A DNA stretch of 23,034 nucleotides from a virus. The DNA is taken from positions 1 to 23,034 of the IMG/VR virus record IMGVR_UViG_3300047408_000021. The stretch is one strand, 5' to 3'. Below are positions 3,497-22,260 of the stretch, piece by piece. Both the position numbers and the translations under genes were made by a program. The number at the start of each line of letters is the position of its first letter. Within the stretch, counting starts at the first letter, position 1. The notes under the pieces are model-generated. The model worked only from the letters and a program-made list of their open reading frames with translations, did not search any database and was not told the origin of the DNA.

Positions 3497-3614
3497 GAGG
3501 CCGCACTCCGAGCCGGACCACCGCCGTCCCCCATCGCACGCGGGGGACACGGAGAGGCACCACTCGTAACGAGGGCACCCCACGGATTCCATCTACTCCG
3601 AAAGGTGCCCCATC

Positions 3615-4781
3615 GTGCCCACCTACGCCGAGACACTCATGGAGGAGCGGGACACTCTGTCCGCCGCCATCGAGTCCACCGTCAACTCCTCCAAGGATTC
3701 CGGCAACGGACTGTCCGAGGACGACAAAACCAAGATCAAGGGGATGCAGACCCGCGTGGCCGTCATTGACGACACGCTCGGGGTCATCGCCTCCGAGCAG
3801 GACTCCACACGCAGGGCCAACGAGTTCGCCGCTCGGTTCCTCCGGCAGCCGAAGGCTCCCACCGAGGAGCGCTCCGCCGCTCGAGTCGAGACGGTCGGGT
3901 CGGCGTTCGCCGCGTCGGGCGAGTACCGCGACTATGGGCAGAACCCCCACGGCAAATCCGGGTACTTCGAGTTCACGCAGCCCGAGGAGGGTGAGCAGCG
4001 GGCACCCGCCATGACAGGCGCGTTCCCCGGCTCGATCAAGGCGTCGCAGATCATCGTGCCCGAGGCCACCGAGCAGTTCCCCTTGTTCGGGCTCGTGGGC
4101 ATGGAGCAGGTGTCCACCGGCACGTTCGAGTACGTCCGCACCGTGTTCGATGACAACGCCGCCGTGGTCCCGGAGGGCGCGCTCAAGCCGGAGTCCACGA
4201 TCACCGAGCAGATCACGCCGGGGGCGCTCGACACGATTGCCCACTGGACGCAGGTCACCCGGCAGGCCCTCGAGGACTCCGCCCGCATCCGGTCCATCAT
4301 CGACGGCAAGTTGACGGAGGGCGTCAACCGGAAGGTCCACGCCTCCATTGCGGAGGTACTCACCGCGTCCAACCTGCCCGCTGTCACCGGCTCCGACCTC
4401 CTCGCCGCCATCCGGGTCGGGATCGCCACCGTGCAGTCGGCGGGATGGGTGCCCAACGCGCTCCTCCTGAACCCGATGGATTGGGCAGACCTCGACATCG
4501 CCGTCATGGTCGGGGCCAACGGGGGACCGACCCGCAACCAGTCGTTCTGGGGGCTCACGCCGGTCGCGGACGCAGGACAGCCCGCAGGCACCGCCACCGT
4601 GGGCGACTTCAAGACCGGGGTGACCCTGTTCTACCGGGCAGGGGTCGGCGTGTACGCCACCGACTCCCACGCGGAGACGTTCACGTCCAACGTGTTCACG
4701 ATCCTGGCCGAGCGTCGGACCAAGGCCGCGTGCCTCAACCCGTACGCGCTGGCCGAGTGCTCCGCTACCGCTGCCGAGTGA
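3615..4781 (+). CDS. Major capsid protein, HK97 fold
   Basis: This is the shell protein. The 388-aa product has a charged, coiled-coil-like N-terminus (about residues 1-75; TLMEERDTLSAAIEST and DDKTKIKGMQTRVAVIDD) that probably acts as a scaffolding delta domain removed by the upstream protease. The HK97-fold body follows, recognisable from IIVPEATEQFPLFGLVGMEQ, VVPEGALKPES and IAHWTQVTRQALEDS. The start is GTG 3615, with GAAAGGTG at 3600-3607 as ribosome binding site. A 133-base gap separates it from the protease; it carries one copy of the palindromic repeat and no separate scaffold gene. Confidence 0.94.
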   Translation: MPTYAETLMEERDTLSAAIESTVNSSKDSGNGLSEDDKTKIKGMQTRVAVIDDTLGVIASEQDSTRRANEFAARFLRQPKAPTEERSAARVETVGSAFAASGEYRDYGQNPHGKSGYFEFTQPEEGEQRAPAMTGAFPGSIKASQIIVPEATEQFPLFGLVGMEQVSTGTFEYVRTVFDDNAAVVPEGALKPESTITEQITPGALDTIAHWTQVTRQALEDSARIRSIIDGKLTEGVNRKVHASIAEVLTASNLPAVTGSDLLAAIRVGIATVQSAGWVPNALLLNPMDWADLDIAVMVGANGGPTRNQSFWGLTPVADAGQPAGTATVGDFKTGVTLFYRAGVGVYATDSHAETFTSNVFTILAERRTKAACLNPYALAECSATAAE

Positions 4782-11794: not shown

Positions 11795-12418
11795 ATGGTC
11801 AACCCCGTTCCCGGCAAGTCCGTCACCACCCCCTACGGCAAGCGAGGGTCCTATTGGTCGTGTGATGAGGACGCCAACGGCAACGGCATTCACACCGGGG
11901 TGGACTACGCCGCACCCTCCGGGACACCTGTGGTCGCCGCCCGAGGAGGGAAGGTCGTTCACTGTTCACACGGGTCGGCGTTCGGCAACCATCAGATCGA
12001 GATACTCCCCGGGGACGGCACCCGCGACTTTTACGCCCACCTGTCCTCGAGGGTCGGCAACGGGGTCAAGGTGTCAACCGGGCAGAAGGTCGGCGCGGTC
12101 GGCGCGGAGGGCAACGTCACCGGAGCCCACCTGCACTTCGAGCGGCACAAGGTCGCCACCGGAGGGTGGTCGTGCGGGATCATCGTGGACCCAACCAAGT
12201 CCATCAACTACGCCTCCGAGGAGGACGACGACATGCCGCTCAACAAGGACGACAAAGACTGGATCAACAAGCAGATCGAGGAGAGCCAGCAGGCGGTCAT
12301 CAAGCGGATGAACGAGTTGATGGGCGACGTGGTGGATCACCCGACCAAAGAGAACAAGGACAACACCGTGTTCGCCAAGACCGCCCTGGGGATGCTCCTC
12401 GACCGTACGGGGAAGTGA
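11795..12418 (+). CDS. M23 peptidase (endolysin or tail-associated lysin)
   Basis: A 207-aa protein with a LytM/M23 zinc metallopeptidase domain (about residues 5-135). The ligands are visible as HTGVD (His33, Asp37) and HLHF (His112, His114), with His82 in YAHLSS. These enzymes cut peptide cross-bridges in peptidoglycan. The C-terminus (about 145-207) is helical and acidic (DKDWINKQIEESQQAVIKRM) and resembles short helical tails on other actinophage lysins. ATG 11795 is preceded by CAGGAG within the palindromic repeat at 11772-11785. With a holin-like gene close downstream, endolysin is the most likely role, but a virion-associated role cannot be excluded. Confidence 0.88.
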   Translation: MVNPVPGKSVTTPYGKRGSYWSCDEDANGNGIHTGVDYAAPSGTPVVAARGGKVVHCSHGSAFGNHQIEILPGDGTRDFYAHLSSRVGNGVKVSTGQKVGAVGAEGNVTGAHLHFERHKVATGGWSCGIIVDPTKSINYASEEDDDMPLNKDDKDWINKQIEESQQAVIKRMNELMGDVVDHPTKENKDNTVFAKTALGMLLDRTGK

Positions 12419-13158
12419 TGCGACGATGCCTTGAGGCGACTCTCCTGGCACTCGCTCTCTCGGTAGGCGTCCCCGCCGCTACCGGCGTATCCCCCGTATC
12501 GCAGAGTAGTGGCGGGGACTCGCTTGTCACCATCACCACACAGAACGTCCGGGTGAGCCTGCCCCCCGCTCGAGCCCGCCACGACATCCGGCGGGCGGCG
12601 GTCAACTCCTCCATCGTGCTCACACAGGAGATGGGCAGGCGGCGCGCCTCGAGGTTCGCCCCGACCGGGTGGGGGGCCGCTCACTTCCCTGGCTTACGTC
12701 AGGGCGACTGTGCCACCTACTACGACCGGAGCACCTGGCGTAAGACAGCATCCTGGACGACGCTCCTGACCGCCGCCCGCTTCCGCGCCGGACACCGCTA
12801 CGCCTTGACCACCATCCTCCGGGGACAAGGGACCCGTCTGGCCGTGGTGTGCGTCCACCTCATCACCCGGTCCCTCGCCCGCCGAACCGTCTACTCACGC
12901 GGCATGGTCCGGCTCCGGCTCCTCCTCTCGAGGCTCCATGTGCCACACGTCGTCGTCGGCGGGGACTGGAACCGGGTGTGGCCGTTGCGGGCACCGCTGG
13001 CAGGGTTCGGCACCCGGGAGCCACCGGCAGCCACCGGCAGCCGGGGAGGTCGCATCGACTTCCTGTGGTGGAAGGGAGCCGGAGAGCGGACAATCAGGGT
13101 GATCGGGCACACCTACTCCGACCACAACGGCGTGCGGGTAGGACTACGACTCCACTAG
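12418..13158 (+). CDS. Exported endonuclease/exonuclease/phosphatase (EEP)-fold protein
   Basis: A 246-aa protein with an N-terminal signal-like stretch (MRRC then LEATLLALALSVGVPAATGV; about residues 1-24; Cys4 is too early for a typical lipobox). The EEP family motifs are complete: Asn in TTQNVRV (Asn43), Gln-Glu in VLTQEM (Gln70, Glu71), His147 in VVCVHL, GDWN (Asp183, Asn185), Asp214 in RIDFLWW, and SDH (Asp235, His236). The set matches DNase I-like nucleases and Mg-dependent phosphodiesterases. The start overlaps the M23 stop (TGATG), so they are coexpressed. The substrate cannot be told from sequence; a secreted DNase is one possibility. Confidence 0.8.
   Translation: MRRCLEATLLALALSVGVPAATGVSPVSQSSGGDSLVTITTQNVRVSLPPARARHDIRRAAVNSSIVLTQEMGRRRASRFAPTGWGAAHFPGLRQGDCATYYDRSTWRKTASWTTLLTAARFRAGHRYALTTILRGQGTRLAVVCVHLITRSLARRTVYSRGMVRLRLLLSRLHVPHVVVGGDWNRVWPLRAPLAGFGTREPPAATGSRGGRIDFLWWKGAGERTIRVIGHTYSDHNGVRVGLRLH
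12689..12702. repeat. Palindromic site: CTGGCTTACGTCAG
   Basis: In the EEP gene, 32 bases before the next copy; the closest pair in the window. Confidence 0.65.
12735..12748. repeat. Palindromic site: CTGGCGTAAGACAG
   Basis: Second of the close pair in the EEP gene; opposite central orientation (GTAA versus TTAC). Confidence 0.65.
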
Positions 13159-13170
13159 GGGGAGGCGACC

Positions 13171-13404
13171 GTGCGCCGGTCCACGACCGACCTCCTCCTC
13201 CTGATGATCGCCGGGACCGTCTGCCTTGTGATCCTGTTCGTCGGCGGGGCCGTGTTCGTGCTCGAGTTGCGGGGCTCCGATACCTCCAAGTTGGCGGGCA
13301 ACCTCACCGATGTGGTGAACACGTTGGTCGGGCTCCTCGCTGGCTTCCTGGCCGGTAGGACCGACCGGAGGCGGAAGGCGGAGACGTTGGAGGCGGAGGA
13401 GTGA
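13171..13404 (+). CDS. Holin-like membrane protein
   Basis: A 77-aa protein with one strong membrane segment ([20 protein letters not shown], about residues 8-32) and a weaker hydrophobic stretch ([15 protein letters not shown], about 47-62), ending in a charged tail ([15 protein letters not shown]). This arrangement fits small actinophage holins. GTG 13171 is preceded by a GGGGGAGG-like ribosome binding site. It follows the M23 and EEP genes and overlaps the collagen-like gene by 4 bases. The holin role is inferred from size, membrane segments and location. Confidence 0.65.
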
Positions 13405-13898
13405 TCGGGACCGTGGTCGGCTTCACCCTGTCGGCGGTGCTGGCAGGCGTGGCCCTCGGACGTGCCGCGTTCGGTCCCGAACCGGGGGAGCCTGTTGGAC
13501 AGGTCCAACACGTCCAACACGTCGTTCCCGGTCCTCCCGGTCCCGAGGGGCCACCGGGACCTGTTGGACCTGTTGGACGCCCTGGACGCCCTGGCAGGGA
13601 CGGGGTGGACGGGAAGGACGGGCGCAGCGTCACGGGGCCGCAGGGTCCGCCGGGGGCGTCCGTGGCAGGCCCTCGAGGGGCACGAGGTCGGCAGGGTCCG
13701 CAGGGTCGGGCGGTGGTCGGACCTCAAGGTAGGCCGGGGCGACCGGGTAGGCCGGGGCGACGTGGGGGCCGGGGACCTCGGGGGATCAGGGGACCTGTCG
13801 GCCCGCCCTGTCCTCCGGGGTTCTCCGGGCGGCGGGAGAACGTCCACACAGACATCCCACAGGGGACCATCGTCGTGTTCGTGTGCGTGCTCGGGTGA
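13401..13898 (+). CDS. Membrane-anchored collagen-like protein
   Basis: A 165-aa protein. Residues 1-24 ([20 protein letters not shown]) form a hydrophobic anchor. Residues about 43-140 are Gly-X-Y triplets ([20 protein letters not shown], then [12 protein letters not shown], and on), probably a trimeric collagen-like stalk. The C-terminus is a short non-collagen cap ([20 protein letters not shown]). Its place inside the lysis cassette, after the holin-like gene and before a one-span membrane peptide, is unusual. The coding DNA also contains five copies of the TGTTGGAC/GTCCAACA half-site. Function unknown. Confidence 0.8.
13493..13578. repeat. TGTTGGAC half-site cluster inside collagen-like gene
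   Basis: TGTTGGACAGGTCCAACA (13493-13510) is an 18-base near-palindrome, followed by another GTCCAACA at 13512-13519 and two direct TGTTGGAC at 13562-13569 and 13571-13578. It differs at one base from the palindrome at 22090-22107. It may be a binding site embedded in coding sequence. Confidence 0.6.
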
Positions 13899-13993
13899 AC
13901 CGGAAGCCCGGGGTTCCTCCGCCCGTCCTGTGGTGGTCCCTGTTCATCCTCCTGTGTTACGTGCTCGGGGTCTGGCTCATCCTCAAGGGGTGA
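13895..13993 (+). CDS. 32-aa single-span membrane peptide
   Basis: A very short gene starting at GTG 13895 (overlapping the collagen-like stop by 4 bases) and ending at TGA 13993. After a short charged, proline-containing head (NRKPGVPPP) comes a hydrophobic span ([20 protein letters not shown]) ending LKG. Size and context suit a second holin or a spanin/antiholin-type regulator, but nothing in the sequence decides. The stop region also carries the GTGA-N6-TCAC box. Coding is supported by the stop-start overlap and the clean membrane segment. Confidence 0.55.
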
Positions 13994-14003
13994 CACAGGT
14001 CAC
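13990..14003. promoter_or_regulatory. Crp/GlxR-like box GTGA-N6-TCAC
   Basis: GTGACACAGGTCAC matches the Crp/GlxR core GTGA-N6-TCAC. It is centred about 63 bases upstream of the start point I infer for the promoter at 14025-14053, the class I activator distance. A second copy stands in the same relation to the next leader at 15019-15032. Confidence 0.4.
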
Positions 14004-14024
14004 ACGCCGAAAGCGTCTACCGAC

Positions 14025-14053
14025 TTGACTGTCAATCCGCTAGACGGTAGATT
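14025..14053 (+). promoter_or_regulatory. Promoter for the right-arm (SprT-like) operon
   Basis: TTGACT (14025-14030), a 17-base spacer and TAGATT (14048-14053) form a good vegetative promoter. The spacer contains the repeat TGTCAATCCGCTAGAC (14030-14045). A palindromic repeat (14056-14069) covers the likely start point, a good place for a repressor. Confidence 0.65.
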
Positions 14054-14055
14054 CT

Positions 14056-14069
14056 CTGTTGTAAGGCAG
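14056..14069. repeat. Palindromic site at promoter start point: CTGTTGTAAGGCAG
   Basis: Three bases after the -10 box at 14048-14053; a classical repressor position. Confidence 0.65.
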
Positions 14070-14071
14070 GA

Positions 14072-14093
14072 ACACCAACCGCTAACCGAAAGG
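14072..14093 (+). promoter_or_regulatory. Leader repeat plus Shine-Dalgarno of the SprT-like gene
   Basis: ACACCAACCGCTA at 14072-14084 is followed by GAAAGG at 14088-14093, 6 bases before ATG 14100. The same leader element occurs before the genes at 15271 and 19860. Confidence 0.6.
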
Positions 14094-14099
14094 CACACC

Positions 14100-14867
14100 A
14101 TGTCCAGCACCGACTTCGCCCCCGCCCCGTTCACCACGACCGGAGCCGAAGGCATCGCCCCCGTAGTCGCTTCCTTGCAGAAGGTGTGGAAGCGCCTACA
14201 GAAGGCGCAGCCGACCCTCCCGGACGCCACCATCGTCATCAAGCGCGACTCACGCGCCTGGGGTCACACCACCACCATGAAGGTGTGGGGCTCGCAGGCC
14301 ACCAAGGGTCGCGGCAAGGCCAAGACCGTCTCCCTCGCCAACGAGCGGTTCGAGGTCATGGTGTCCGGCGAGAACCTCTCGAGGGGTCCGGTGGCCGTGC
14401 TCGGGACCCTGCTTCACGAGGCAGCCCACGCCCTCAACCTGGCCGACGGGATCATGGACGTGGACTCCAACGGGCGGCACAACAAAAAGTTCAAGGCCCG
14501 CGCGGAGGAGGCGTGGGGGCTCGACATCCGGGACCTCGGGAATTGGCTCGGATGGACCGACACCCACGTCCCCGCCGAGTGCGCGAAGCGGTGGTCTGTT
14601 GAGGTCAAGATGATCGCCACCGCCCTGCACAAGGCGACCGTGGCTCACCACCCGTCAGTCGGCAAGGGCGGCACCGCTGTCATCGTGCCCCCGAAGCCGG
14701 GACGCACCAAGACGGGCGGCAGGGCGAAGAACCTCAACCGCGCCGTGTGCAAGTGCGTGCCGGACGCCTCCGGGTGGAGGCCCTCGCTCCGGGCGTCGGC
14801 TCGAGTCCTCGCCATTGGCATCAAGTGTGAGGAGTGCGACGCTCTGTTCGAGGTGACTGGCGAGTGA
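14100..14867 (+). CDS. SprT-like zinc metallopeptidase with C-terminal zinc ribbon
   Basis: A 255-aa protein. The metalloprotease motif HEAAH (about residues 106-110) followed by H in NGRHNKKF (about 127) is the SprT/Wss1-type arrangement HExxH...H. The C-terminus has CKC and CEEC pairs (about residues 217-250) that probably bind a second zinc. Cellular SprT-like proteases (Spartan) degrade DNA-protein cross-links, so a role in clearing or remodelling DNA-bound proteins is possible. ATG 14100 follows the leader repeat and GAAAGG. The frame is open from ATG 14025, but that ATG lies within the -35 box. This is the first gene after the lysis cassette and has its own promoter. Confidence 0.75.
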   Translation: MSSTDFAPAPFTTTGAEGIAPVVASLQKVWKRLQKAQPTLPDATIVIKRDSRAWGHTTTMKVWGSQATKGRGKAKTVSLANERFEVMVSGENLSRGPVAVLGTLLHEAAHALNLADGIMDVDSNGRHNKKFKARAEEAWGLDIRDLGNWLGWTDTHVPAECAKRWSVEVKMIATALHKATVAHHPSVGKGGTAVIVPPKPGRTKTGGRAKNLNRAVCKCVPDASGWRPSLRASARVLAIGIKCEECDALFEVTGE

Positions 14868-15022
14868 GTTGGTGGCGAGAGGTGTGGCAGGAGGTCCCCT
14901 GCCCCGTGTGTGAGGCGGGGCCGGGAGAGCCCTGCCGCACCCTCTCCGGCAGGGTGAGTTACGAGCCTCACGCCGAGAGAGCGCGGCTTGCCCGCCTCCA
15001 CCGGCTCGACCCGTACCTGTGA
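14864..15022 (+). CDS. Small zinc-finger protein (CPxC...PGEPC type)
   Basis: A 52-aa protein starting at GTG 14864 in overlap with the previous stop. It contains CPVCEAGPGEPCRTLSGR followed by EPHAERARLARLHRLDPYL. This is a small zinc-binding family common in actinobacterial phages and hosts, with the last metal ligand probably His in EPHAER. The role is unknown; DNA or protein binding is usual for such fingers. Confidence 0.7.
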   Translation: MSWWREVWQEVPCPVCEAGPGEPCRTLSGRVSYEPHAERARLARLHRLDPYL

Positions 15023-15032
15023 CGCAGATCAC
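15019..15032. promoter_or_regulatory. Second Crp/GlxR-like box
   Basis: GTGACGCAGATCAC overlaps the stop of the preceding zinc-finger gene. As at 13990, it stands about 27-40 bases upstream of a TGTCAA...CTAGAC repeat. Confidence 0.4.
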
Positions 15033-15072
15033 TGTCAACCTACTAGGCACTCACTTGTCAACCTGCTAGACT
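15033..15072 (+). promoter_or_regulatory. Tandem TGTCAA-N4-CTAGAC-like repeats upstream of C2HC gene
   Basis: TGTCAACCTACTAGGC (15033-15048) and TGTCAACCTGCTAGAC (15056-15071) lie 23 bases apart. TAGACT at 15067-15072 could be a -10 box, but no convincing -35 is spaced correctly, so this may be an operator rather than a simple promoter. Confidence 0.45.
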
Positions 15073-15073
15073 A

Positions 15074-15087
15074 CTGACGTAAGGCAG
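15074..15087. repeat. Palindromic site: CTGACGTAAGGCAG
   Basis: Two bases after the TAGACT element before the C2HC gene; identical to 1518-1531. Confidence 0.7.
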
Positions 15088-15109
15088 ACAACGAGAGGAG
15101 AACCAAGCG

Positions 15110-15199
15110 ATGCACAAGTGCCCGCACTGTGGCTACTCGTTCCCCGATAAGGGGAGCCTGAAAGCCCACACGGACGGAGGGTGCCCCGACGCACCCTGA
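15110..15199 (+). CDS. 29-aa C2HC zinc-finger peptide
   Basis: A tiny gene with ATG 15110, preceded by GAGAGGAG. It encodes a single finger: Cys-X2-Cys in KCPHCGYSF, then His in LKAHTDGG and Cys after X4 (C-X2-C-X12-H-X4-C). The finger fills almost the whole product. Its own leader (two operator-like repeats and a palindromic site at 15074-15087) implies it is regulated separately. Possibly a DNA-binding regulator; no data decide. Confidence 0.6.
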   Translation: MHKCPHCGYSFPDKGSLKAHTDGGCPDAP

Positions 15200-15208
15200 A
15201 CCACCGAC

Positions 15209-15239
15209 TTGCCAACCCGCTCGGGCGGGGTGGTACAGT
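15209..15239 (+). promoter_or_regulatory. Putative promoter for the 15271 operon
   Basis: TTGCCA (15209-15214) and TACAGT (15234-15239) are separated by 19 bases. The -35 overlaps a degenerate TGCCAACCCGCTCGGG copy of the leader repeat. Confidence 0.45.
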
Positions 15240-15245
15240 CCGTTT

Positions 15246-15265
15246 ACACCAACCGCTAGAAAGGA
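15246..15265 (+). promoter_or_regulatory. Leader repeat plus Shine-Dalgarno of the 15271 gene
   Basis: ACACCAACCGCTA (15246-15258) is identical to the copy at 14072-14084 and merges into GAAAGGA, about 7 bases before ATG 15271. Confidence 0.6.
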
Positions 15266-15270
15266 TCAGC

Positions 15271-15684
15271 ATGAACAAGACATCAACCACCGCGACAGTC
15301 ACCCGGATTCCGCCGTGCGACTTTTGCACCAACTCCGCCGTCTACGACACGAAGATGCGCGACCGCTCCTCATGGGCATACATGTGTGAGGACCACTACG
15401 CCGTGCTCGGAATCGGTCGGCTCGGGCTCGGACTAGGCCAGAGGCTTATCCTCCCCGCAGATAAGGCAGACACCCCGGACACCCCGGACGCCACGTCCTC
15501 GAGGACGGAGTGGACAACCGCCGAGTTGCGGGAGGAGTTCACCGTCCTGGGGTTCTCAATGGGGTACGTCGTCGTACAACGCAAGGCCGACGACGTGAAG
15601 GGCTCCATGCTTTTCAAGCGAGTCAATGACGCCGACGGCGAACCCCACCGCGTTTACTACGGATGGGCGGAGGACAAGGCATGA
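15271..15684 (+). CDS. Hypothetical protein with N-terminal zinc-binding motif
   Basis: A 137-aa protein. The N-terminus has CDFC (about residues 16-19) and MCEDHY (about 38-43), a four-ligand zinc pattern shared with small actinophage early proteins. The C-terminal part (EEFTVLGFSMGYVVVQRKAD, then GSMLFKRV) looks like a short beta-strand module seen in related phage proteins. The connecting region has Thr/Pro/Asp repeats (ADTPDTPDAT). It starts at ATG 15271 after a leader repeat and heads an operon of five overlapping genes ending at 16918. Confidence 0.6.
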   Translation: MNKTSTTATVTRIPPCDFCTNSAVYDTKMRDRSSWAYMCEDHYAVLGIGRLGLGLGQRLILPADKADTPDTPDATSSRTEWTTAELREEFTVLGFSMGYVVVQRKADDVKGSMLFKRVNDADGEPHRVYYGWAEDKA

Positions 15685-15776
15685 GCGACCACCGGCACCG
15701 TTGGGAGATTCAGTACGGCGGCGGCTCGCGTTGCGCCGTGTGCGGGGCAACGACAGATCGGAACGTGGAGTCATGA
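15681..15776 (+). CDS. 31-aa CxxC micro-protein
   Basis: A micro-gene with ATG 15681 overlapping the previous stop by 4 bases and overlapping the next ATG by 4 bases. The product starts MSDHRHRWEI and has one CAVC pair (residues 18-21) with His residues upstream, so it can form a small zinc site. Support comes from tight coupling on both sides. No function can be assigned. Confidence 0.5.
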   Translation: MSDHRHRWEIQYGGGSRCAVCGATTDRNVES

Positions 15777-16111
15777 GCGAGTACGACAACCCGTCCGATT
15801 GGGCCGCGTCCCTCGAGGCCAACCTCCTCCACTGTCGGGAGTTGGGTCACTCGTGGGACGGCTACACCGCGTCCTATGACAACAAGTCGCGGACGTACGA
15901 CAGGACCCTCATGTGCGCATCCTGTGGCACCGAGCGGCGGCAGATTCTCGACGCTCGAGGAGAGGTCATCAAAAACGGCTACGGCTACGTCCCCGGCTAC
16001 CTCGCCAAAGGACAGTTCGATCACGTCGGGCACAAGGTCCCGCGTGCCACCTTCCGACTCGTGGCCCTGCAACGCATGGTCACCCCGGCTCGCAAGAGGA
16101 GGGCGTCATGA
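15773..16111 (+). CDS. Zinc-binding hypothetical protein
   Basis: A 112-aa protein of a type common in actinophages: ANLLHCRELGHSWDG at the N-terminus, then CASCGTERRQILDARGEVIK and NGYGYVPGYL. The Cys (RE)LGH and CxxC supply four metal ligands. A palindromic repeat (15890-15903) lies in the coding sequence. Function unknown. Confidence 0.6.
   Translation: MSEYDNPSDWAASLEANLLHCRELGHSWDGYTASYDNKSRTYDRTLMCASCGTERRQILDARGEVIKNGYGYVPGYLAKGQFDHVGHKVPRATFRLVALQRMVTPARKRRAS
15890..15903. repeat. Palindromic site: CGGACGTACGACAG
   Basis: In the zinc-binding gene at 15773; identical to 2051-2064. Confidence 0.6.
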
Positions 16112-16281
16112 AGGGCGTCAAGTACGCCACCGTCCGCAACGAGAAGCACACCATCACCGTGCGGACATGGCGGGAGCGGAAGGGTCCCGGCTCCCGCGTG
16201 TTCGAGGACCACTACAGGTTCGTCCTCGACGGGAAAATCCTGGACGAGGGGACGCTGGCCGACCCGAAGGACGAAGGGTGA
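16108..16281 (+). CDS. Small hypothetical protein
   Basis: A 57-aa, beta-rich, strongly charged protein (KYATVRNEKHTITVRTWRER, then DHYRFVLDGKILDEGTL) with no recognised domain. It overlaps both neighbours by 4 bases, so it is part of the operon beginning at 15271. Confidence 0.5.
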   Translation: MKGVKYATVRNEKHTITVRTWRERKGPGSRVFEDHYRFVLDGKILDEGTLADPKDEG

Positions 16282-16703
16282 GCAGGCGCGCCAAGGATGA
16301 GCCTTGGATGAACAAGTGCAAGGTCTGTGGCCGTCAGGCGGAGGTGGGGCATCCTGACGGCTACGGCGGGCAGGAGTACTACTGTGCCCTCCACGAGCCG
16401 GAGACACTCGAGAACCTGTGGACGGGACCGCCGGACGGGGAGCGCAGCGGTGGGACTTACGACAGCAGTCGGGACAAGGATCGGCTCAACCGGCAGGCGC
16501 GCATGGTGTGGCTCGTGATGGCCGACGGCGAGTGGCACACCCTGTCCGGCATCGCCGCCCGGACGGGGCAGCCGGAGGCGTCCATATCTGCAAGGCTCCG
16601 GGACCTACGCAAACGGCGGTTCGGGTCGCACATCATCGCCCGCCGCTACGTCGCCGACGGGCTCCACGAGTATCGCTGGGAAGGGAGGAGGAACCTCGCA
16701 TGA
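16278..16703 (+). CDS. Zinc ribbon + winged helix-turn-helix protein
   Basis: A 141-aa protein from GTG 16278. The N-terminus has CKVCGRQAEVGH and CALHEPE, a four-ligand zinc site (about residues 14-40). The C-terminal half (NRQARMVWLVMADGEWHTLS, IAARTGQPEASISARLRDLR, then a beta-hairpin ending YRW) is a winged helix seen in phage DNA-binding proteins. It may be a transcription regulator or an accessory replication protein. A palindromic repeat (16452-16465) is in its gene. Confidence 0.6.
   Translation: MSRRAKDEPWMNKCKVCGRQAEVGHPDGYGGQEYYCALHEPETLENLWTGPPDGERSGGTYDSSRDKDRLNRQARMVWLVMADGEWHTLSGIAARTGQPEASISARLRDLRKRRFGSHIIARRYVADGLHEYRWEGRRNLA
16452..16465. repeat. Palindromic site: GGGACTTACGACAG
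   Basis: In the linker between zinc and winged-helix parts of the 16278 gene; encodes GTYDS. Confidence 0.55.
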
Positions 16704-16918
16704 CGCACCGGCTACCTAGCACCGTCCGAGCCGGACGGAGGGTCACCGAGTTGGAGGATCGTCTCATCGTGGCTCGAGCCGCGCGGGACGCCGCCATCCG
16801 TGACCGGCACCGGCAGGGCATCGGTCCCACACAGATCGCACGGGAGGTCGGGATCACCCGGCAGGCCGTCTACAACGTGCTTGTCAACCAACTTGACCCT
16901 GATCGCTCCGTCGTGTGA
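16700..16918 (+). CDS. Small helix-turn-helix protein
   Basis: A 72-aa protein, ATG 16700 overlapping the previous stop. An amphipathic N-terminal helix (VTELEDRLIVARAARDAAIR) is followed by a resolvase-type helix-turn-helix: GIGPTQIAREVGITRQAVYN (about residues 41-60). It could be a DNA-binding regulator and is a candidate for a protein reading one of the dispersed motifs, but that link is speculative. Confidence 0.6.
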   Translation: MTHRLPSTVRAGRRVTELEDRLIVARAARDAAIRDRHRQGIGPTQIAREVGITRQAVYNVLVNQLDPDRSVV

Positions 16919-16931
16919 CAATCGACTAGAC
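16893..16931 (+). promoter_or_regulatory. Weak promoter and TGACAATCGACTAGAC repeat
   Basis: TTGACC (16893-16898), 18 bases and GACAAT (16917-16922) form a possible promoter; the repeat copy TGACAATCGACTAGAC spans 16916-16931. It lies across the end of the preceding gene and precedes the gene at 16956. Confidence 0.35.
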
Positions 16932-16933
16932 AG

Positions 16934-16955
16934 ACACCAACGAAAGGAACCGCTA
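16934..16955 (+). promoter_or_regulatory. Leader variant: GAAAGG before CCGCTA
   Basis: ACACCAACGAAAGGAACCGCTA directly precedes ATG 16956. Compared with other leaders, the Shine-Dalgarno core and the AACCGCTA part are in reversed order. Confidence 0.5.
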
Positions 16956-17279
16956 ATGAACGAGGACATCAAGGTGATGAACACCGCCGACCTCACCGAG
17001 TTGAACAATCGGGCCATCCGCTCCAAGTTCAACCGGACCCTCGCCGCCCCATTCATCGCCATGCTCGACCCCAACGGGAACCACATCGCCTCACTCATCC
17101 TGTGGGGCCACAACGCCGACAGCGCTCACAAGTTCCACCACCGGGCGCGCGTGCTCTGCAAGATCATCGACCACGACAAGCCCGTCATGGTCCTCCTCGA
17201 CATCGCGGATGAGGATTGGGCACGACTCCACACGCCCGCCGAGTTCAAGGATGCCGCCGATAGTGTCGGCGGGGTCTGA
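16956..17279 (+). CDS. Hypothetical protein
   Basis: A 107-aa protein with no recognised domain. Features are a helical start (MNTADLTELNNRAIRSKFNR), a beta strand pair (APFIAMLDPNGNHIASLILW) and a His-rich segment (SAHKFHHRARVLCKIIDHDK). It has its own repeat-bearing leader and is followed by a 102-base gap with a hairpin, so it may be its own transcription unit. Confidence 0.55.
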   Translation: MNEDIKVMNTADLTELNNRAIRSKFNRTLAAPFIAMLDPNGNHIASLILWGHNADSAHKFHHRARVLCKIIDHDKPVMVLLDIADEDWARLHTPAEFKDAADSVGGV

Positions 17280-17303
17280 CACCATCACAAACGTCTCCCG
17301 GGA

Positions 17304-17333
17304 GCCGGGGTGCATCGGGGGAGCACTCCCGGC
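17304..17333 (+). terminator. GC-rich stem-loop, possible terminator
   Basis: GCCGGGGTGC (17304-17313) pairs with GCAC-T-CCCGGC (17323-17333) with one bulged T and a 9-base loop. No T-tract follows. It lies between two genes with separate leaders, so termination or attenuation is possible. Confidence 0.35.
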
Positions 17334-17342
17334 ACCGGGGGC

Positions 17343-17370
17343 GAACCAACCGCTACAACCAACCCGCTAG
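17343..17370 (+). promoter_or_regulatory. Double leader repeat before the 17382 gene
   Basis: CGAACCAACCGCTA and CAACCAACCCGCTAG stand side by side just before GGAGAAACC and ATG 17382. No -35/-10 pair was found upstream. Confidence 0.5.
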
Positions 17371-17381
17371 GAGAAACCAAC

Positions 17382-17966
17382 ATGACCGACAACATCAGCA
17401 TCAACATCCCGAAGGACGGGGCCATCCCGTACGTGGAGGGCAGCCACGCCGTCGGCGTACAGGTGGAGACTCGCACCACCGAGAGCGACGCGCTACAGGT
17501 CCGGCTCACGTTCGAGGCCGTCGGGGAGGACGCCCTGCACGCCGGGTCCCTCGTGGCCGAGTTCACCCTCATCAGGCCGGAGCAGGTCCCGCACTCCGAC
17601 AAGTCCGACGACGAGCAAGCCACCATCGGCAGCAACTACGCCCGACTCATGGTGGAGGCGGCGCAGCACATCGTCGGGGAGCACCTGTCGGAGTTCTACT
17701 CCGAGGCCCTCTCCACCGCCATCGCGGACAGGGTGGCCGAGCAGGGCGGCGCGACAGTGGAGGGCATCGCCAAGACCTGCATGATGATCGCCGCGCTCCT
17801 CATCGTGCAGGCCGGGGGCGACAAGGCCAAGGCCAAGGCCAACGCCGACGTTGCAGGCAACCCGACCCTCCGGGACCTCGCCCTCAAGTCGGGGATGACC
17901 GAGGCGCTCATGGGTCACGTGACCGAGACCGTGCGCGAGGCCATCGACCTGTGTGACCTGTCGTGA
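17382..17966 (+). CDS. Hypothetical protein, helical C-terminus
   Basis: A 194-aa protein. The N-terminal half is beta-rich (VGVQVETRTTESDALQVRLT); the C-terminal half is helical with an Ala/Lys segment (GGDKAKAKANADVAGN) and a hydrophobic stretch (KTCMMIAALLIVQAGG) too polar at the ends for a confident membrane span. It precedes the RecB-like nuclease by a 4-base overlap, so it may act in the same recombination step. Family not recognised. Confidence 0.55.
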   Translation: MTDNISINIPKDGAIPYVEGSHAVGVQVETRTTESDALQVRLTFEAVGEDALHAGSLVAEFTLIRPEQVPHSDKSDDEQATIGSNYARLMVEAAQHIVGEHLSEFYSEALSTAIADRVAEQGGATVEGIAKTCMMIAALLIVQAGGDKAKAKANADVAGNPTLRDLALKSGMTEALMGHVTETVREAIDLCDLS

Positions 17967-17971
17967 GTGAG
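17958..17971. repeat. Near-match: CTGTCGTGAGTGAG
   Basis: Two mismatches; covers the stop/start overlap before the RecB-like nuclease. Confidence 0.3.
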
Positions 17972-18844
17972 AGCCATCCGGTCCTCCAACGGCTGTCGGG
18001 GAGGTCACGGCGTTACGCCCGGATTGACCTGGGTAGGATCGTCCCCTCCGTCACCACTGTCGTAAGTCTGACCCCCAAGCCATACCTCATGAATTGGGTG
18101 GTCAAGTTGGCGGCGGAATGGGCAGCGGCACACACGCTGGACCTCATGCCCATGTCGTACGAGGAGCGGGTGGCACTCATCAAGGCCGAAACCACCGTGC
18201 TCCGTGAGGAGGGTGCTCGGAAGGGCACCCTCCTCCACGAGTACGCCGAGCAGTACGTGTGGTTGGGCAGCGCGGAGCCGCCCAAGACCAAGCCGGAGCA
18301 GTCCGTCATCGACATCATCGACCTGTTGCAGCCGCACGTCCTGTTCACCGAGGCGATGGTGTGGAACGGGGAACACGGCTATGCCGGGACCCTCGACGGG
18401 GTGTGGGAGGTGACCATCGACGGGCGCGTGGAGACGTGGCTCGTGGACTGGAAAACCTCCAAGAGTCGGAGCGCGGAGTGGGCTCTGCAAGGGCTCGCCT
18501 ACGCCAAGGCCGAAACCATCTTCAACGGCAGGGGTGAGGAGTTCCCGATGCCGCACATTGACCGCATCGTGGTCCTGTGGGTCCCGTTCGATGGGCCGTG
18601 GGCGGTGCTCCCGGTGCAGGCCGGTGAGTTCGAGTGGGCAACCTTCCGGGCCGCGTTGCAGGTGCTCCGGTGGCACGACGCTCAAGGGGTGCAGGACGTT
18701 CTAGGACCACCGCTCTACGGACTTACGTCAGAGGTTGAGACGCCCCCGACCCCGAAGCCGGAACATCTCGAACGCCTGCACGCGCTCGGGATCGACTATC
18801 CCGCCCGCGTCATTCCGCCCGGAACGGGAGACACCGATGGCTGA
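17963..18844 (+). CDS. PD-(D/E)XK nuclease, RecB/Cas4-type exonuclease
   Basis: A 293-aa protein starting at GTG 17963. The N-terminus VPSVTTVVSLTPKPYLMNWV matches the entry segment of RecB-like phage exonucleases. The catalytic set is visible: His92 (LLHEYAE), Asp145 (TLDGVW), Asp162 and Lys164 (LVDWKTSK), and the Gln motif at Gln176 (ALQGLAYAK). Such nucleases resect double-strand ends for recombination or degrade host DNA. No Cys cluster for an iron-sulphur site was seen, unlike typical Cas4. The palindromic repeat appears twice in its gene (18057, 18718). Confidence 0.85.
   Translation: MSESHPVLQRLSGRSRRYARIDLGRIVPSVTTVVSLTPKPYLMNWVVKLAAEWAAAHTLDLMPMSYEERVALIKAETTVLREEGARKGTLLHEYAEQYVWLGSAEPPKTKPEQSVIDIIDLLQPHVLFTEAMVWNGEHGYAGTLDGVWEVTIDGRVETWLVDWKTSKSRSAEWALQGLAYAKAETIFNGRGEEFPMPHIDRIVVLWVPFDGPWAVLPVQAGEFEWATFRAALQVLRWHDAQGVQDVLGPPLYGLTSEVETPPTPKPEHLERLHALGIDYPARVIPPGTGDTDG
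18057..18070. repeat. Palindromic site: CTGTCGTAAGTCTG
   Basis: Near the 5' end of the RecB-like nuclease gene. Confidence 0.6.
18718..18731. repeat. Palindromic site: CGGACTTACGTCAG
   Basis: Near the 3' end of the RecB-like nuclease gene; encodes GLTSE, another frame. Confidence 0.6.
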
Positions 18845-19037
18845 GCACACCGCCGAGAATGGGCTACTCACCTGCGAGGACTTCCCCGGCCCTGAATCCT
18901 GCTGCGACTCATGCCACGAGGACGCCGACGAGGGATACATCGAACTCTCGTGGGGAGACACGGACGACGGGCGCGAGTATGTGGTTTGCTGCGCTCGCTT
19001 ACGGAACATGGAGCGCGAGCCCACCGACTTGACATGA
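18837..19037 (+). CDS. Small Cys-rich acidic protein
   Basis: A 66-aa acidic protein with ATG 18837, overlapping the nuclease gene by 8 bases. CCDSCHED (about residues 22-29) and CCARLRN (about 51-57) can form one zinc site. Function unknown; context is next to the recombination nuclease. Confidence 0.55.
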   Translation: MAEHTAENGLLTCEDFPGPESCCDSCHEDADEGYIELSWGDTDDGREYVVCCARLRNMEREPTDLT

Positions 19038-19059
19038 TCGAGTGTCAAGGCGCTAGACT
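19029..19059 (+). promoter_or_regulatory. Promoter with TGTCAAGGCGCTAGAC repeat
   Basis: TTGACA (19029-19034), a 19-base spacer and TAGACT (19054-19059). The repeat TGTCAAGGCGCTAGAC occupies 19043-19058. It sits 47 bases before ATG 19106. Confidence 0.55.
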
Positions 19060-19105
19060 CTCGGAAGCAACATCAACCAACACAACACGGAAGCGAGACA
19101 GCAAC

Positions 19106-19468
19106 ATGACAGACGAACAGATCAATTGGGACGACATGGCAACGTCCGGCTTCATGAAGTTCGAGGCCATCGGGGACAGCATCAGCGGCACCATCGCCAA
19201 GGTGTACCCCGGCACCGACTTCAACGGGAACCCGTGCCCCGTGCTCGACCTCATCACCGAGGACGGAGAGCGCACCCTCTCGTGCGGTCAAGCCAACCTC
19301 AAAGCGCAGATCGTCGCCATCAAGCCCAAGGCCGGTGAGACGATCAAGGTCACGTTCGACCACGAGGAGAAAGCCGCCCTCGGGATGCGCAAAGTGTTCG
19401 TCATCGAACACTCCAACCCCCTCGGGGCGACCGTGGAGACGACCGAGCCCGCAAAGCCGGGGTTCTGA
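19106..19468 (+). CDS. Probable single-strand DNA-binding-like (OB-fold) protein
   Basis: A 120-aa protein with ATG 19106. The pattern FMKFEAIGDSISGTIAKVYP, LDLITEDGERTLSCGQANLK and KPKAGETIKVTFDHEEKAAL recalls small OB-fold phage proteins of the DUF669/SSB kind, with an acidic, proline-containing C-terminus (ETTEPAKPGF). It has its own promoter and precedes the primase-helicase, so a role in coating single-stranded DNA is plausible. The assignment is inference from pattern, not a certain family. Confidence 0.5.
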   Translation: MTDEQINWDDMATSGFMKFEAIGDSISGTIAKVYPGTDFNGNPCPVLDLITEDGERTLSCGQANLKAQIVAIKPKAGETIKVTFDHEEKAALGMRKVFVIEHSNPLGATVETTEPAKPGF

Positions 19469-19469
19469 C

Positions 19470-19736
19470 ATGGCGCTCAACGGGCTCACCGATCGGGTCA
19501 AGACCGACGACGGCTATCACTTCACCCGGTTCACCGTCTCCGGAGAGGCAGAAGTCCTCCGCCGCGACGACCTCCGAGGGTGCTGGGAGGTCAACGGCAC
19601 CGTCTACGGCAGCCGAGAGGAGGCGTTCGAGGCAGCCGAGCAGATGCTCGACGCCGAGACGCAGGAGGCCCCGGAGCCTGACGACTCCTCGCCCGACCTG
19701 GCCGAGCGGGTAGCAGCCGGACACGCTACAGCCTAG
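19470..19736 (+). CDS. Hypothetical acidic protein
   Basis: An 88-aa protein starting one base after the previous stop codon (TGA C ATG). It has a small beta-sheet start (GYHFTRFTVSGEAEVL), then an acidic helix (EEAFEAAEQMLDAETQEAPE) and tail. Likely cotranscribed with the 19106 gene and ending at the strong hairpin after 19742. Function unknown. Confidence 0.55.
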   Translation: MALNGLTDRVKTDDGYHFTRFTVSGEAEVLRRDDLRGCWEVNGTVYGSREEAFEAAEQMLDAETQEAPEPDDSSPDLAERVAAGHATA

Positions 19737-19741
19737 TAACC

Positions 19742-19785
19742 ACCGGAGCCGGGTGGGAGTGTATGAGACTCCACCCGGCTCCGGT
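19742..19785 (+). terminator. Strong 15-bp terminator hairpin
   Basis: ACCGGAGCCGGGTGG (19742-19756) pairs perfectly with CCACCCGGCTCCGGT (19771-19785); AGT/ACT extends the stem after one bulge. It is followed by TCTAGTT, only weakly T-rich. It separates the 19106-19736 operon from the primase gene. A weaker, mismatched stem (GGAGAAGCC with GGCTCCTCC) follows from about 19794. Confidence 0.75.
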
Positions 19786-19821
19786 TCTAGTTCGGAGAAG
19801 CCCCCGCTAAAAGGCTCCTCC

Positions 19822-19849
19822 ACACCAACCGCTGACACCCACGAAAGGA
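19822..19849 (+). promoter_or_regulatory. Leader repeat plus Shine-Dalgarno of the primase-helicase
   Basis: ACACCAACCGCTG (19822-19834) and GAAAGG (19843-19848) precede ATG 19860. No clear promoter was found between the terminator and this leader. Confidence 0.6.
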
Positions 19850-19859
19850 CCATTCCACC

Positions 19860-22064
19860 ATGACTGACAGCGACCAACAGGGTACGGCACTCGCCACCGC
19901 TCTGCACGTCGTAGGCCACTGGCCGGGGGCCAAGGTGCTCCCCGTACGGGGCAAGGTCCCCGTCTACGACGAAGTGCCCCACGGCTCAAGAGACGCCACC
20001 GACGACCCGCAGACCATCGCCGCATGGTTCACCGGCACCGACTACGGGGTGGCCGTCACCGGGGTCCTCGCCATCGACGGCGACGACCTCGACGCCACGT
20101 TCGACGGGCTCGGGGATGACCTCCTCGAGGGCGTGCAGATACAGGGCAACCCCTACCGCATGACGTTCGTGTTCGCCCAACCCGCCAAGCCCTACGGAGA
20201 CGGCAAGCACCCCGGCGGGGAGGTCAAAGGCTCCGGCTACGTCGTGCTCCCACCCTCCGCCCATGACGGCGGGGACGAGTGTGTCACCTGCCAGACCGGG
20301 CCGCACACCTACCGTTGGGTGCGCCGTGACCTCGACGGCGGGCTCCCTGCCCTGCCCGCGTCGCTGACCGGATGGCTGGACGAGCACGTCAGACGACAGG
20401 GCGACCATGTGCAGCCCTCCGACGAGGTGCCCCCGCTCTGGCTCACCCACGGCGACACGTGTCGGACTGTCGTACGACAGGTGGACGAAGCCACCCTCAA
20501 CCTTGACAAGCCGGACGTGTCCAAACACCCCATCATGACCGACGCCACCCTGCGCCTCCTCCGGCTCGGGGAGCAGGGGCACGCCGGGGTCGGCACCGCC
20601 ATCGCCGCCGTCTACGGGGCGTTCCTGACCGCCTGTCGCCGCGACTCGCCGGGGCGGGCAGCCCTGGCTCCACCGGAGTTCCACCGGGCGCTCCTGGGGG
20701 CCGTGAGCAGGATCGAGGCCGACGGGCTCACCGCCCCCGAGGACTACGGGTGCTGTACTCCGGAGCCGGACCCGCTGACCGACGACCTCGTGTTCACCGC
20801 CACCCCCCTCCTGGCCCACATCAGGTCCACCGCCCACGCCCGACGGGTAGGACCGTGGGCGCTCCTCGGGTCGGCCCTCGCCCGCGCCGTGGCCGAAACT
20901 CCCCCCCACATCCGGCTCCCACCGTTCGTCGGCGGAGACGCCTCCCTCAACCTCTACGTCGCCCTCGTGGACGCATCAGGGGCAGGCAAGTCCGCCGGAC
21001 ACAAGGCGGCAGCCGAAACGTTCACCGGGATGGCATGGGCACGGCAGGTCCCCAACGGGTCCGGGGAAGGGCTCATCGCCTCATTCCTCGAACGCACCCC
21101 GAAAGCCGACCTCGAGGCCGACCCCCACCAACCCCGCTTCCGGCTCCACACCAACCCTCAAGTCCTCATGTACGTAGACGAGATCGGGCAACTCCAAGTC
21201 GGCAGCCAACGGCAGGGTGCGTCCATCGACCCCATCCTCCGATCCATGTGGAACGGGGAGCACGTCGGCACCAACAATGCCGAAGCCGACCGCAACCGGA
21301 ACCTCCCGCCGCACTCCTACCGGCTGGCGCTCGTGGCCGGGGTGCAGCCGGGGCTCGCCGGGTCGCTCCTGTCGCAGCAGGCCACCACGTCGGGGACGGC
21401 TCAGCGGTGGCTCTGGCTCCCGGTCACCGACCCCTTCACCCCCGACATGGTGCCCGCCATCCCACCGCCACAGACCTGGACCCTGGACCTGCCCGCGTCC
21501 GGGGTCCGGTACATCACGTTCCCGACGTACGTCAGGACCGAGGTGGACGAGGCGCGGCTCCGGGTGCTCCGGGGGATCGGGGTCACCGAGGAGGACAAGG
21601 TGAAGGCCCACGCCATGCTCACCCGGATGAAGGTGGCCGCAGCGGTGGCCGTGCTCCACAACTCCCTCGAGGTAGATGACCTGTTCTGGCGCATCGCCGG
21701 GGTGGTGATGGAGAAGTCCGACGCCACCCGCGCCGGGGTCCTGCACCTGTTGGCGGAGTCGGCGGAGCGGGAGGCGGAGTCCCGTGGCCGGACGGCGGCA
21801 GCAGCCGACAGGGGACGGCGCAAGGCGGAGGGTGAGACGGACGAGAGGATCGCCCGGAGGCTCGTGAAGGTGGTCCTCGACCATCATGCGGAGGGCACTC
21901 CGCGCCATGATTCGGGGGCCGGTTGCGCCCGGTCCTGCCTGACCCTCGCCATCGCCTCGAGGGACCGGGCGTACCTGGACGGCGGCATTGGCTACGCCCT
22001 CGACATGGACCTCCTGACGATGGGTGAAGATGGTCACTTCCGTATGGGGGCGGAGGGGTTGTAA
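19860..22064 (+). CDS. Primase-helicase fusion (prim-pol + P-loop ATPase)
   Basis: A 734-aa replication protein. Residues 1-160 match the bifunctional primase/polymerase domain: DATDDPQTIAAWF, VTGVLAIDGDDLD (acidic residues about 73-78), GSGYVVLPPSAH. Residues about 360-530 are an ATPase/helicase domain with Walker A (DASGAGKS, about 371-378), Walker B (VLMYVDE, about 435-441) and a possible arginine finger in GTAQRWLW. The C-terminal 150 residues are helical with a probable winged helix (RRLVKVVLDHHAEGTPRHDS). As no DNA polymerase gene is present, it probably primes and unwinds for host polymerase. The gene is preceded by a terminator and followed by the repeat-rich gap. Confidence 0.85.
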   Translation: MTDSDQQGTALATALHVVGHWPGAKVLPVRGKVPVYDEVPHGSRDATDDPQTIAAWFTGTDYGVAVTGVLAIDGDDLDATFDGLGDDLLEGVQIQGNPYRMTFVFAQPAKPYGDGKHPGGEVKGSGYVVLPPSAHDGGDECVTCQTGPHTYRWVRRDLDGGLPALPASLTGWLDEHVRRQGDHVQPSDEVPPLWLTHGDTCRTVVRQVDEATLNLDKPDVSKHPIMTDATLRLLRLGEQGHAGVGTAIAAVYGAFLTACRRDSPGRAALAPPEFHRALLGAVSRIEADGLTAPEDYGCCTPEPDPLTDDLVFTATPLLAHIRSTAHARRVGPWALLGSALARAVAETPPHIRLPPFVGGDASLNLYVALVDASGAGKSAGHKAAAETFTGMAWARQVPNGSGEGLIASFLERTPKADLEADPHQPRFRLHTNPQVLMYVDEIGQLQVGSQRQGASIDPILRSMWNGEHVGTNNAEADRNRNLPPHSYRLALVAGVQPGLAGSLLSQQATTSGTAQRWLWLPVTDPFTPDMVPAIPPPQTWTLDLPASGVRYITFPTYVRTEVDEARLRVLRGIGVTEEDKVKAHAMLTRMKVAAAVAVLHNSLEVDDLFWRIAGVVMEKSDATRAGVLHLLAESAEREAESRGRTAAAADRGRRKAEGETDERIARRLVKVVLDHHAEGTPRHDSGAGCARSCLTLAIASRDRAYLDGGIGYALDMDLLTMGEDGHFRMGAEGL
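20467..20480. repeat. Palindromic site: CTGTCGTACGACAG
   Basis: A perfect 14-base palindrome in the primase-helicase gene. Confidence 0.7.
21522..21535. repeat. Palindromic site: CCGACGTACGTCAG
   Basis: In the primase-helicase gene, one base off the consensus. Confidence 0.55.
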
Positions 22065-22069
22065 GACAG
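22056..22069. repeat. Palindromic site at primase stop: GGGTTGTAAGACAG
   Basis: Includes the primase-helicase stop and opens the repeat-rich gap; the right half is perfect. Confidence 0.55.
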
Positions 22070-22078
22070 GAGTTTCGG

Positions 22079-22127
22079 TGTTGGACAAGTGTTGGACATG
22101 TCCAACATGGGGGGCATGTTCCAACAT
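22079..22127. repeat. TGTTGGAC palindrome cluster, left part
   Basis: One half-site, one perfect 18-base palindrome (22090-22107) and one degenerate copy in 49 bases, directly downstream of the primase-helicase stop. Confidence 0.75.
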
Positions 22128-22212
22128 TGACAACCAAACGGTTGAATGGCTCTGACCTGCATAAACACTCAAAAAGTTTGAATCGCATTAGGCGCGCGAG
22201 AGTGAACCCCCA

Positions 22213-22238
22213 TGTTGGACCGTCCAACAGTCCAACAT
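22213..22238. repeat. TGTTGGAC palindrome cluster, right part
   Basis: TGTTGGAC-C-GTCCAACA followed at once by GTCCAACAT. The inverted pair plus an extra right half-site copies the layout at 13493-13519 in the collagen-like gene. Confidence 0.75.
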
Positions 22239-22260
22239 CAGCACACCAAGAGGAGCAGCG

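Follow-up and report, generated by a model that had tools for sequence, protein, structure and literature searches.

The window analyzed here comprises an entire IMG/VR virus record (23,034 nt). It encodes a prim-pol protein, directly followed by a gap that carries repeated copies of one half-site word, TGTTGGAC (GTCCAACA in the opposite orientation), and copies of the same word recur in a collagen-like open reading frame (ORF). The features under study are as follows.

13401 to 13898, plus strand: collagen-like ORF carrying the putative ectopic cluster (PF01391, E 9e-12)
13493 to 13519: putative ectopic triad, ><< (TGTTGGAC, GTCCAACA, GTCCAACA)
13562 to 13578, plus strand: two direct half-sites in GPVGPVG codons, probably collagen-codon repeats
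19860 to 22064, plus strand: Prim-Pol/DUF3987 (MCM-like AAA+)/C-terminal winged-helix protein, proposed origin-binding initiator (PF09250, PF13148)
22079 to 22107: left triad of the likely origin, >>< (TGTTGGAC, TGTTGGAC, GTCCAACA), including the palindrome 22090-22107
22100 to 22113 and 22207 to 22220: perfect 14-bp inverted repeat with a 93-nt loop
22108 to 22212: AT-rich block between the triads, candidate DNA-unwinding element, containing the 50 most AT-rich bp of the record (22141-22190)
22118 to 22127, minus strand: half-site near-copy, TGTTCCAACA
22213 to 22237: right triad of the likely origin, ><< (TGTTGGAC, GTCCAACA, GTCCAACA)

The window contains 11 exact TGTTGGAC sites, against 0.78 expected from dinucleotide shuffles (none of 100 shuffles reached 11). 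All of them fall in two clusters, five in the collagen-like ORF (13493+, 13503-, and 13512-, then 13562+ and 13571+) and six in the gap (22079+, 22090+, and 22100-, then, beyond the AT-rich block, 22213+, 22222-, and 22230-), the latter reading >>< ... ><<. Random occurrence of the 8-mer elsewhere, which the preliminary description had named as grounds for abandoning its proposal, was thus absent from the window. The two 18-mers on which that description was built (13493-13510 and 22090-22107) lie where it placed them and differ at one base. It also reported an extra GTCCAACA after the inverted pair in both places; the copies at 13512-13519 and 22230-22237 are real, but the second follows another inverted pair (22213-22229) and not the palindrome at 22090. 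The leading half-site at 22079, which the description had missed, turns the left gap cluster into a triad, a layout also seen in L003, L010, L014, and many homologous loci. The near-copy at 22118-22127 and the AT-rich block separating the gap triads had likewise escaped notice. A megablast search of the whole window against phage records gave no match.

A second family of dispersed palindromes (CTTACG/CTTACGTCAG, GTAAGACAG) has about 17 sites in the window, at positions 72, 1129, 1522, 4813, 5920, 9177, 10548, 10752, 11776, 12693, 12739, 15078, 16456, 18061, 18722, 18998, and 22828, and looks like a set of dispersed operators. The related genome G001 has 18 CTTACG sites and G003 only 3.

Within the gap, the first half-site lies 14 nt past the prim-pol stop codon. 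The 14-bp inverted repeat spans the AT-rich block, and the strand fold of positions 22070-22245 has a z score of -5.6. Stem-loops at the 3' side are present in the prim-pol replicons of pRN1 and phage BIP-1 (PMC4234260). These features would fit a pRN1-like stem-loop origin in which half-site identity is a mere by-product of stem complementarity. However, the half-sites are also arranged as direct repeats, number up to 14 in relatives, and, in the sister phages described below, have taken on one shared new word at almost every copy, those in direct repeat among them, which makes the stem-loop explanation highly improbable. An Rfam search gave no match, and GC skew does not mark the likely origin.

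An alignment of four prim-pol proteins retrieved 80 homologous loci from viral contigs, most of which, in a de novo k-mer scan, proved to carry a cluster of one short word directly after the prim-pol gene. The systematic count covered 80 usable loci, drawn from viral contigs, the window itself, and three records of Gordonia/Mycobacterium phages. When the best exact 8-mer was required in at least 5 copies in the 450 nt around and beyond the prim-pol stop, 50 of the 80 loci qualified (5 to 14 copies each), compared with 5 of 1600 control windows taken from these loci. The isolated Gordonia phages TinyDot and Reyja have 14 and 4 copies, respectively, and the Corndog-type phage Firecracker (L173) was negative for such a cluster. 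The commonest half-site layout is >><><<, and the half-sites point mostly inward on either side of the largest gap in 32 of 42 nonredundant loci. A 50-mer ranking in the top 0.5% for AT content lies in the 260 nt past the stop in every one of the 42 genomes examined; for 33 of them, the window (22141-22190) included, no other 50-mer of the genome is as AT-rich. The word itself differs between lineages (TGTTGGAC, GGTGGACA, GGGGGGAC, GGTGTACA, TGTCGGAA, and others). These findings indicate that the cluster after the prim-pol gene is very likely the phage replication origin. The likely origin can therefore be placed exactly for a large set of prim-pol (DUF3987) phages, isolated Gordonia phages included.

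The architecture of the prim-pol protein was modeled with AlphaFold from a 40-sequence alignment. The ATPase domain was predicted with confidence, and the N-terminal prim-pol part was poorly modeled. Residues ~313 to 630 of the predicted structure align with MCM helicases (Z of ~15, with a root mean square deviation of 4.0 to 4.7 over ~250 residues), so the DUF3987 region, which corresponds to a Pfam family of unknown function (PF13148), looks to have an MCM-like fold. A winged helix is also confidently predicted at residues ~680 to 730, with pLDDT blocks mostly above 90 and a last block of 73. A sequence search of the PDB returned only weak P-loop matches.

Sister phages connect this protein to the half-site word. 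The helicases of L203 and L246 are 94.5% identical, and nearly all half-sites have changed together from GGTGGACA to GGTGGCCA. Those of L227 and L236 are 97.7% identical, with only 71% identity over the last 70 amino acids, and the half-sites have changed from GGTGTCAG to GGTGGAGG. The center of the origin is largely kept in the sister phages, while the C-terminal domain and almost all half-sites changed together. At the level of single residues, one helix-2 position is occupied by R, K, or H in 28 of the 33 proteins that go with a G at base 2 of the word, compared with 1 of the 13 that go with a T, the word classes being assigned by hand from the words (Fisher P of 2e-6 for 46 sequences, uncorrected for kinship). 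After tree correction, the association kept its direction (about 3.9 versus 1.0 of 6 independent pairs) and was not significant, the pairs being too few. Since each lineage has its own word, and the word shifts along with the C-terminal domain, the prim-pol/MCM-like protein is the likely binder of the half-sites. Such sister pairs mean that the specificity of an initiator for its iterons can be read and tested.

The co-change also bears on whether both clusters are instead operators of a separate regulator, either a host factor or the small helix-turn-helix protein encoded at 16700-16918, with a gap that is regulatory and not an origin. The sites are indeed palindromic and dispersed, and one site in G001 lies ~50 to 60 bp upstream of a start codon. 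However, the word changes with the prim-pol C-terminal domain in sister phages, the cluster follows prim-pol and brackets the most AT-rich DNA across the family, and a scan limited to consensus matches detected no sigma-70-like promoter in the gap. We regard the operator explanation as very unlikely. The suggestion of replication iterons in the preliminary description is, by contrast, strongly supported for the gap by recurrence after homologous genes, co-change with the protein, and the AT-rich block.

From the observed layout, recurrence, and co-change, we infer how an origin of this kind would work. The winged-helix C terminus of the prim-pol/MCM-like protein would bind the half-sites in the two triads, the helicase domains would assemble at both sides of the AT-rich block and melt it, and priming would fall to the prim-pol domain. 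The triad in the collagen-like ORF would represent this binding unit at an ectopic position, where it lacks an unwinding element. Most likely the same initiator could bind there as well, and the triad might take part in replication control by titration or by pairing with the origin. Taken jointly, an origin in the gap and an ectopic binding unit in the ORF form the reading that we favor as reasonably probable.

The collagen-like ORF itself leaves room for another origin of its cluster. The half-site is used five times in the ORF, as previously described, but the non-collagen VQHVQH comes from only two of the five copies, and another two encode ordinary Gly-Pro-Val-Gly-Pro-Val-Gly. The cluster might be neutral, with the gap still the origin, and have arisen from Gly-Pro-Val codons (CCT GTT GGA C), a 9-bp tandem duplication, and an inverted duplication by template switching. 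Consistent with this, at least one TGTTGGAC appears in 21 to 32% of synonymous recodings of the ORF, the same or similar words are present in collagen-like genes of unrelated phages, GTCCAACAC forms an exact 9-bp tandem repeat, and positions 13503-13523 and 13558-13578 make up a 21-nt inverted repeat with 90% complementarity. The collagen cluster was seen in one phage only. On the other hand, its ><< geometry is that of the right origin triad and of the ectopic triads in a sister phage, each arm of the palindrome corresponds precisely to the 8-mer, and none of 20,000 synonymous shuffles produced five sites (maximum, 3), in a model that does not allow for duplications. A neutral cluster is therefore a possibility that deserves weight, although it falls short of being probable. 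The inner gap of the collagen cluster is GC-rich coding DNA (21% AT), so the cluster is not a second full origin.

Relatives were compared at both loci. G001 (the nearest relative, prim-pol 55%), G002 (a 10.9-kb fragment), and G003 have the origin cluster without the collagen cluster. The preliminary description had argued from conservation of both clusters and had named relatives keeping one alone as counterevidence; on that point it did not hold. A second record, G004 (L150/L348), shows full identity to the window across the 11.5 kb that were compared and ends at window position 13474, 19 bp before the collagen triad, so it provides no test of that site. The end may reflect an assembly break at the palindrome or a coincidence. 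Scans with the terminase, the capsid, and an SprT-like protein found no further relative reaching the collagen region. Nearby, the gene at 12418-13158, between peptidase-like and membrane genes, has an apparent signal peptide and an endonuclease/exonuclease/phosphatase domain, and L003 holds a relative of it.

Copies outside the origin were nevertheless found in G001. The palindrome GTTGGA-N4-TCCAAC occurs six times in this genome, twice in the origin and four times elsewhere (2999, 14098, 16620, and 18679), and is its most overrepresented gapped palindrome (simulated expectation, 0). A third half-site accompanies each of the four ectopic palindromes; it is exact in three of them and degenerate in the one at 18679. 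Their settings are a gene end, a position just past an SprT-like gene, a position upstream of a start codon, and an intergenic hairpin-like stretch, indicating that ectopic triads occur in the clade at nonhomologous places. In a distant relative, G042 (the L223 contig), two origin-like copies lie 43 kb apart, at 3497-3709 and from 46356 onward; they are 76% identical over 215 nt, and only one follows a prim-pol gene.

When 42 genomes were scanned with their own words, the only other distant cluster of exact 8-mers was in G014, and it was rejected as repetitive low-complexity sequence. When genome contigs were scanned for ><< triads, the single match was a Bacteroides nordii contig with an AT-rich region of different appearance, and tandem half-site scans matched mostly collagen-like codons and unrelated AT-rich phages. 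Some AT-rich phages carry clusters of TGTTGGA(C/T) (L032, 7929-8143; L127, 8914-9120; L346, 1510-1812; L155, 940-1250), one of them in Bacteroides nordii. In L032 and L127 the clusters lie upstream of a conserved protein of ~165 to 190 amino acids, and that of L032 comes after a gene for a CHC2/DnaG-like primase. These phages apparently use the same word in an unrelated replicon.

Given the G001 palindromes of the same word, an ectopic initiator-binding site in the window is plausible, and with it the earlier proposal of one protein binding both clusters. The collagen cluster is either a stray second initiator site or a by-product of the gene's own repeats. Weighing the G001 triads against the codon and duplication evidence and the GC-rich inner gap, we consider it slightly more likely than not that the collagen triad binds the initiator, and we regard a genuine role in control as doubtful. 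A broader proposal, that phages of this clade scatter lone initiator-binding triads, also inside genes, as cis replication-control sites that communicate with the origin, and that the VQHVQH coding was bent to keep them, is likewise rather unlikely. If the ectopic triads are real, replication-control DNA would be embedded in a coding gene.

Several known systems resemble this arrangement. The alpha protein of satellite phage P4 is a primase-helicase-DNA-binding fusion, and P4 has iterons at ori and at a distant second site, crr. The window likewise combines such a fused protein with iterons at the likely origin and a second distant site, but here the second site consists of one triad and two codon-like sites and is not conserved. 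The P4 alpha primase is of the bacterial (Toprim) type (PMC4234260), whereas the domain in the window is Prim-Pol (PF09250); the P4 cognate site is mentioned in PMC6092414.

The pRN1 origin is a stem-loop 3' of the prim-pol gene (PMC4234260). The window shares with pRN1 and BIP-1 a protein with Prim-Pol, helicase, and winged-helix domains, an origin (in the window, a likely one) 3' of the gene, and stem-loop potential. However, pRN1 has an SF3 helicase and no iterons, whereas the window encodes an MCM-like helicase domain and has clear iterons, which are the conserved element. SaPI Rep and SCCmec Cch2 each use the C-terminal domain to recognize repeats that lie immediately 3' of the gene encoding them (PMC7581432). 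Repeats directly downstream of the helicase gene are common to Cch2 and the window, and the C-terminal double-stranded-DNA-binding domain of Cch2 has a putative counterpart in the winged helix predicted here, but Cch2 is accompanied by a separate polymerase pair and three short direct repeats, in contrast to the inverted two-triad layout and fused prim-pol seen here.

The general arrangement is like that of PICI origins, in which two iteron sets flank an AT-rich region after pri-rep and replication was shown by plasmid tests (PMC6092414). As in PICI/SaPI elements, the likely origin lies directly after the primase/initiator-helicase gene, with two iteron sets flanking an AT-rich region. Iteron binding by the helicase C terminus in PICI/SaPI may have a counterpart here, where a winged helix is predicted and the half-sites change together with the C terminus. 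The window differs in its fused Prim-Pol-family primase and its ectopic cluster 8.6 kb away, and its own terminase, portal, and capsid genes (a terminase profile match, a major-capsid homologue, and a full run of structural genes) set it apart from satellites, which lack structural genes. The locus therefore appears to work like a PICI origin without belonging to a PICI. Among the top open-access matches, no paper joined DUF3987 with iterons or origins, which is weak evidence of novelty. What is new here relative to these systems is the spread of the layout over DUF3987 prim-pol phages, the co-change of initiator and iterons, and the ectopic sites.
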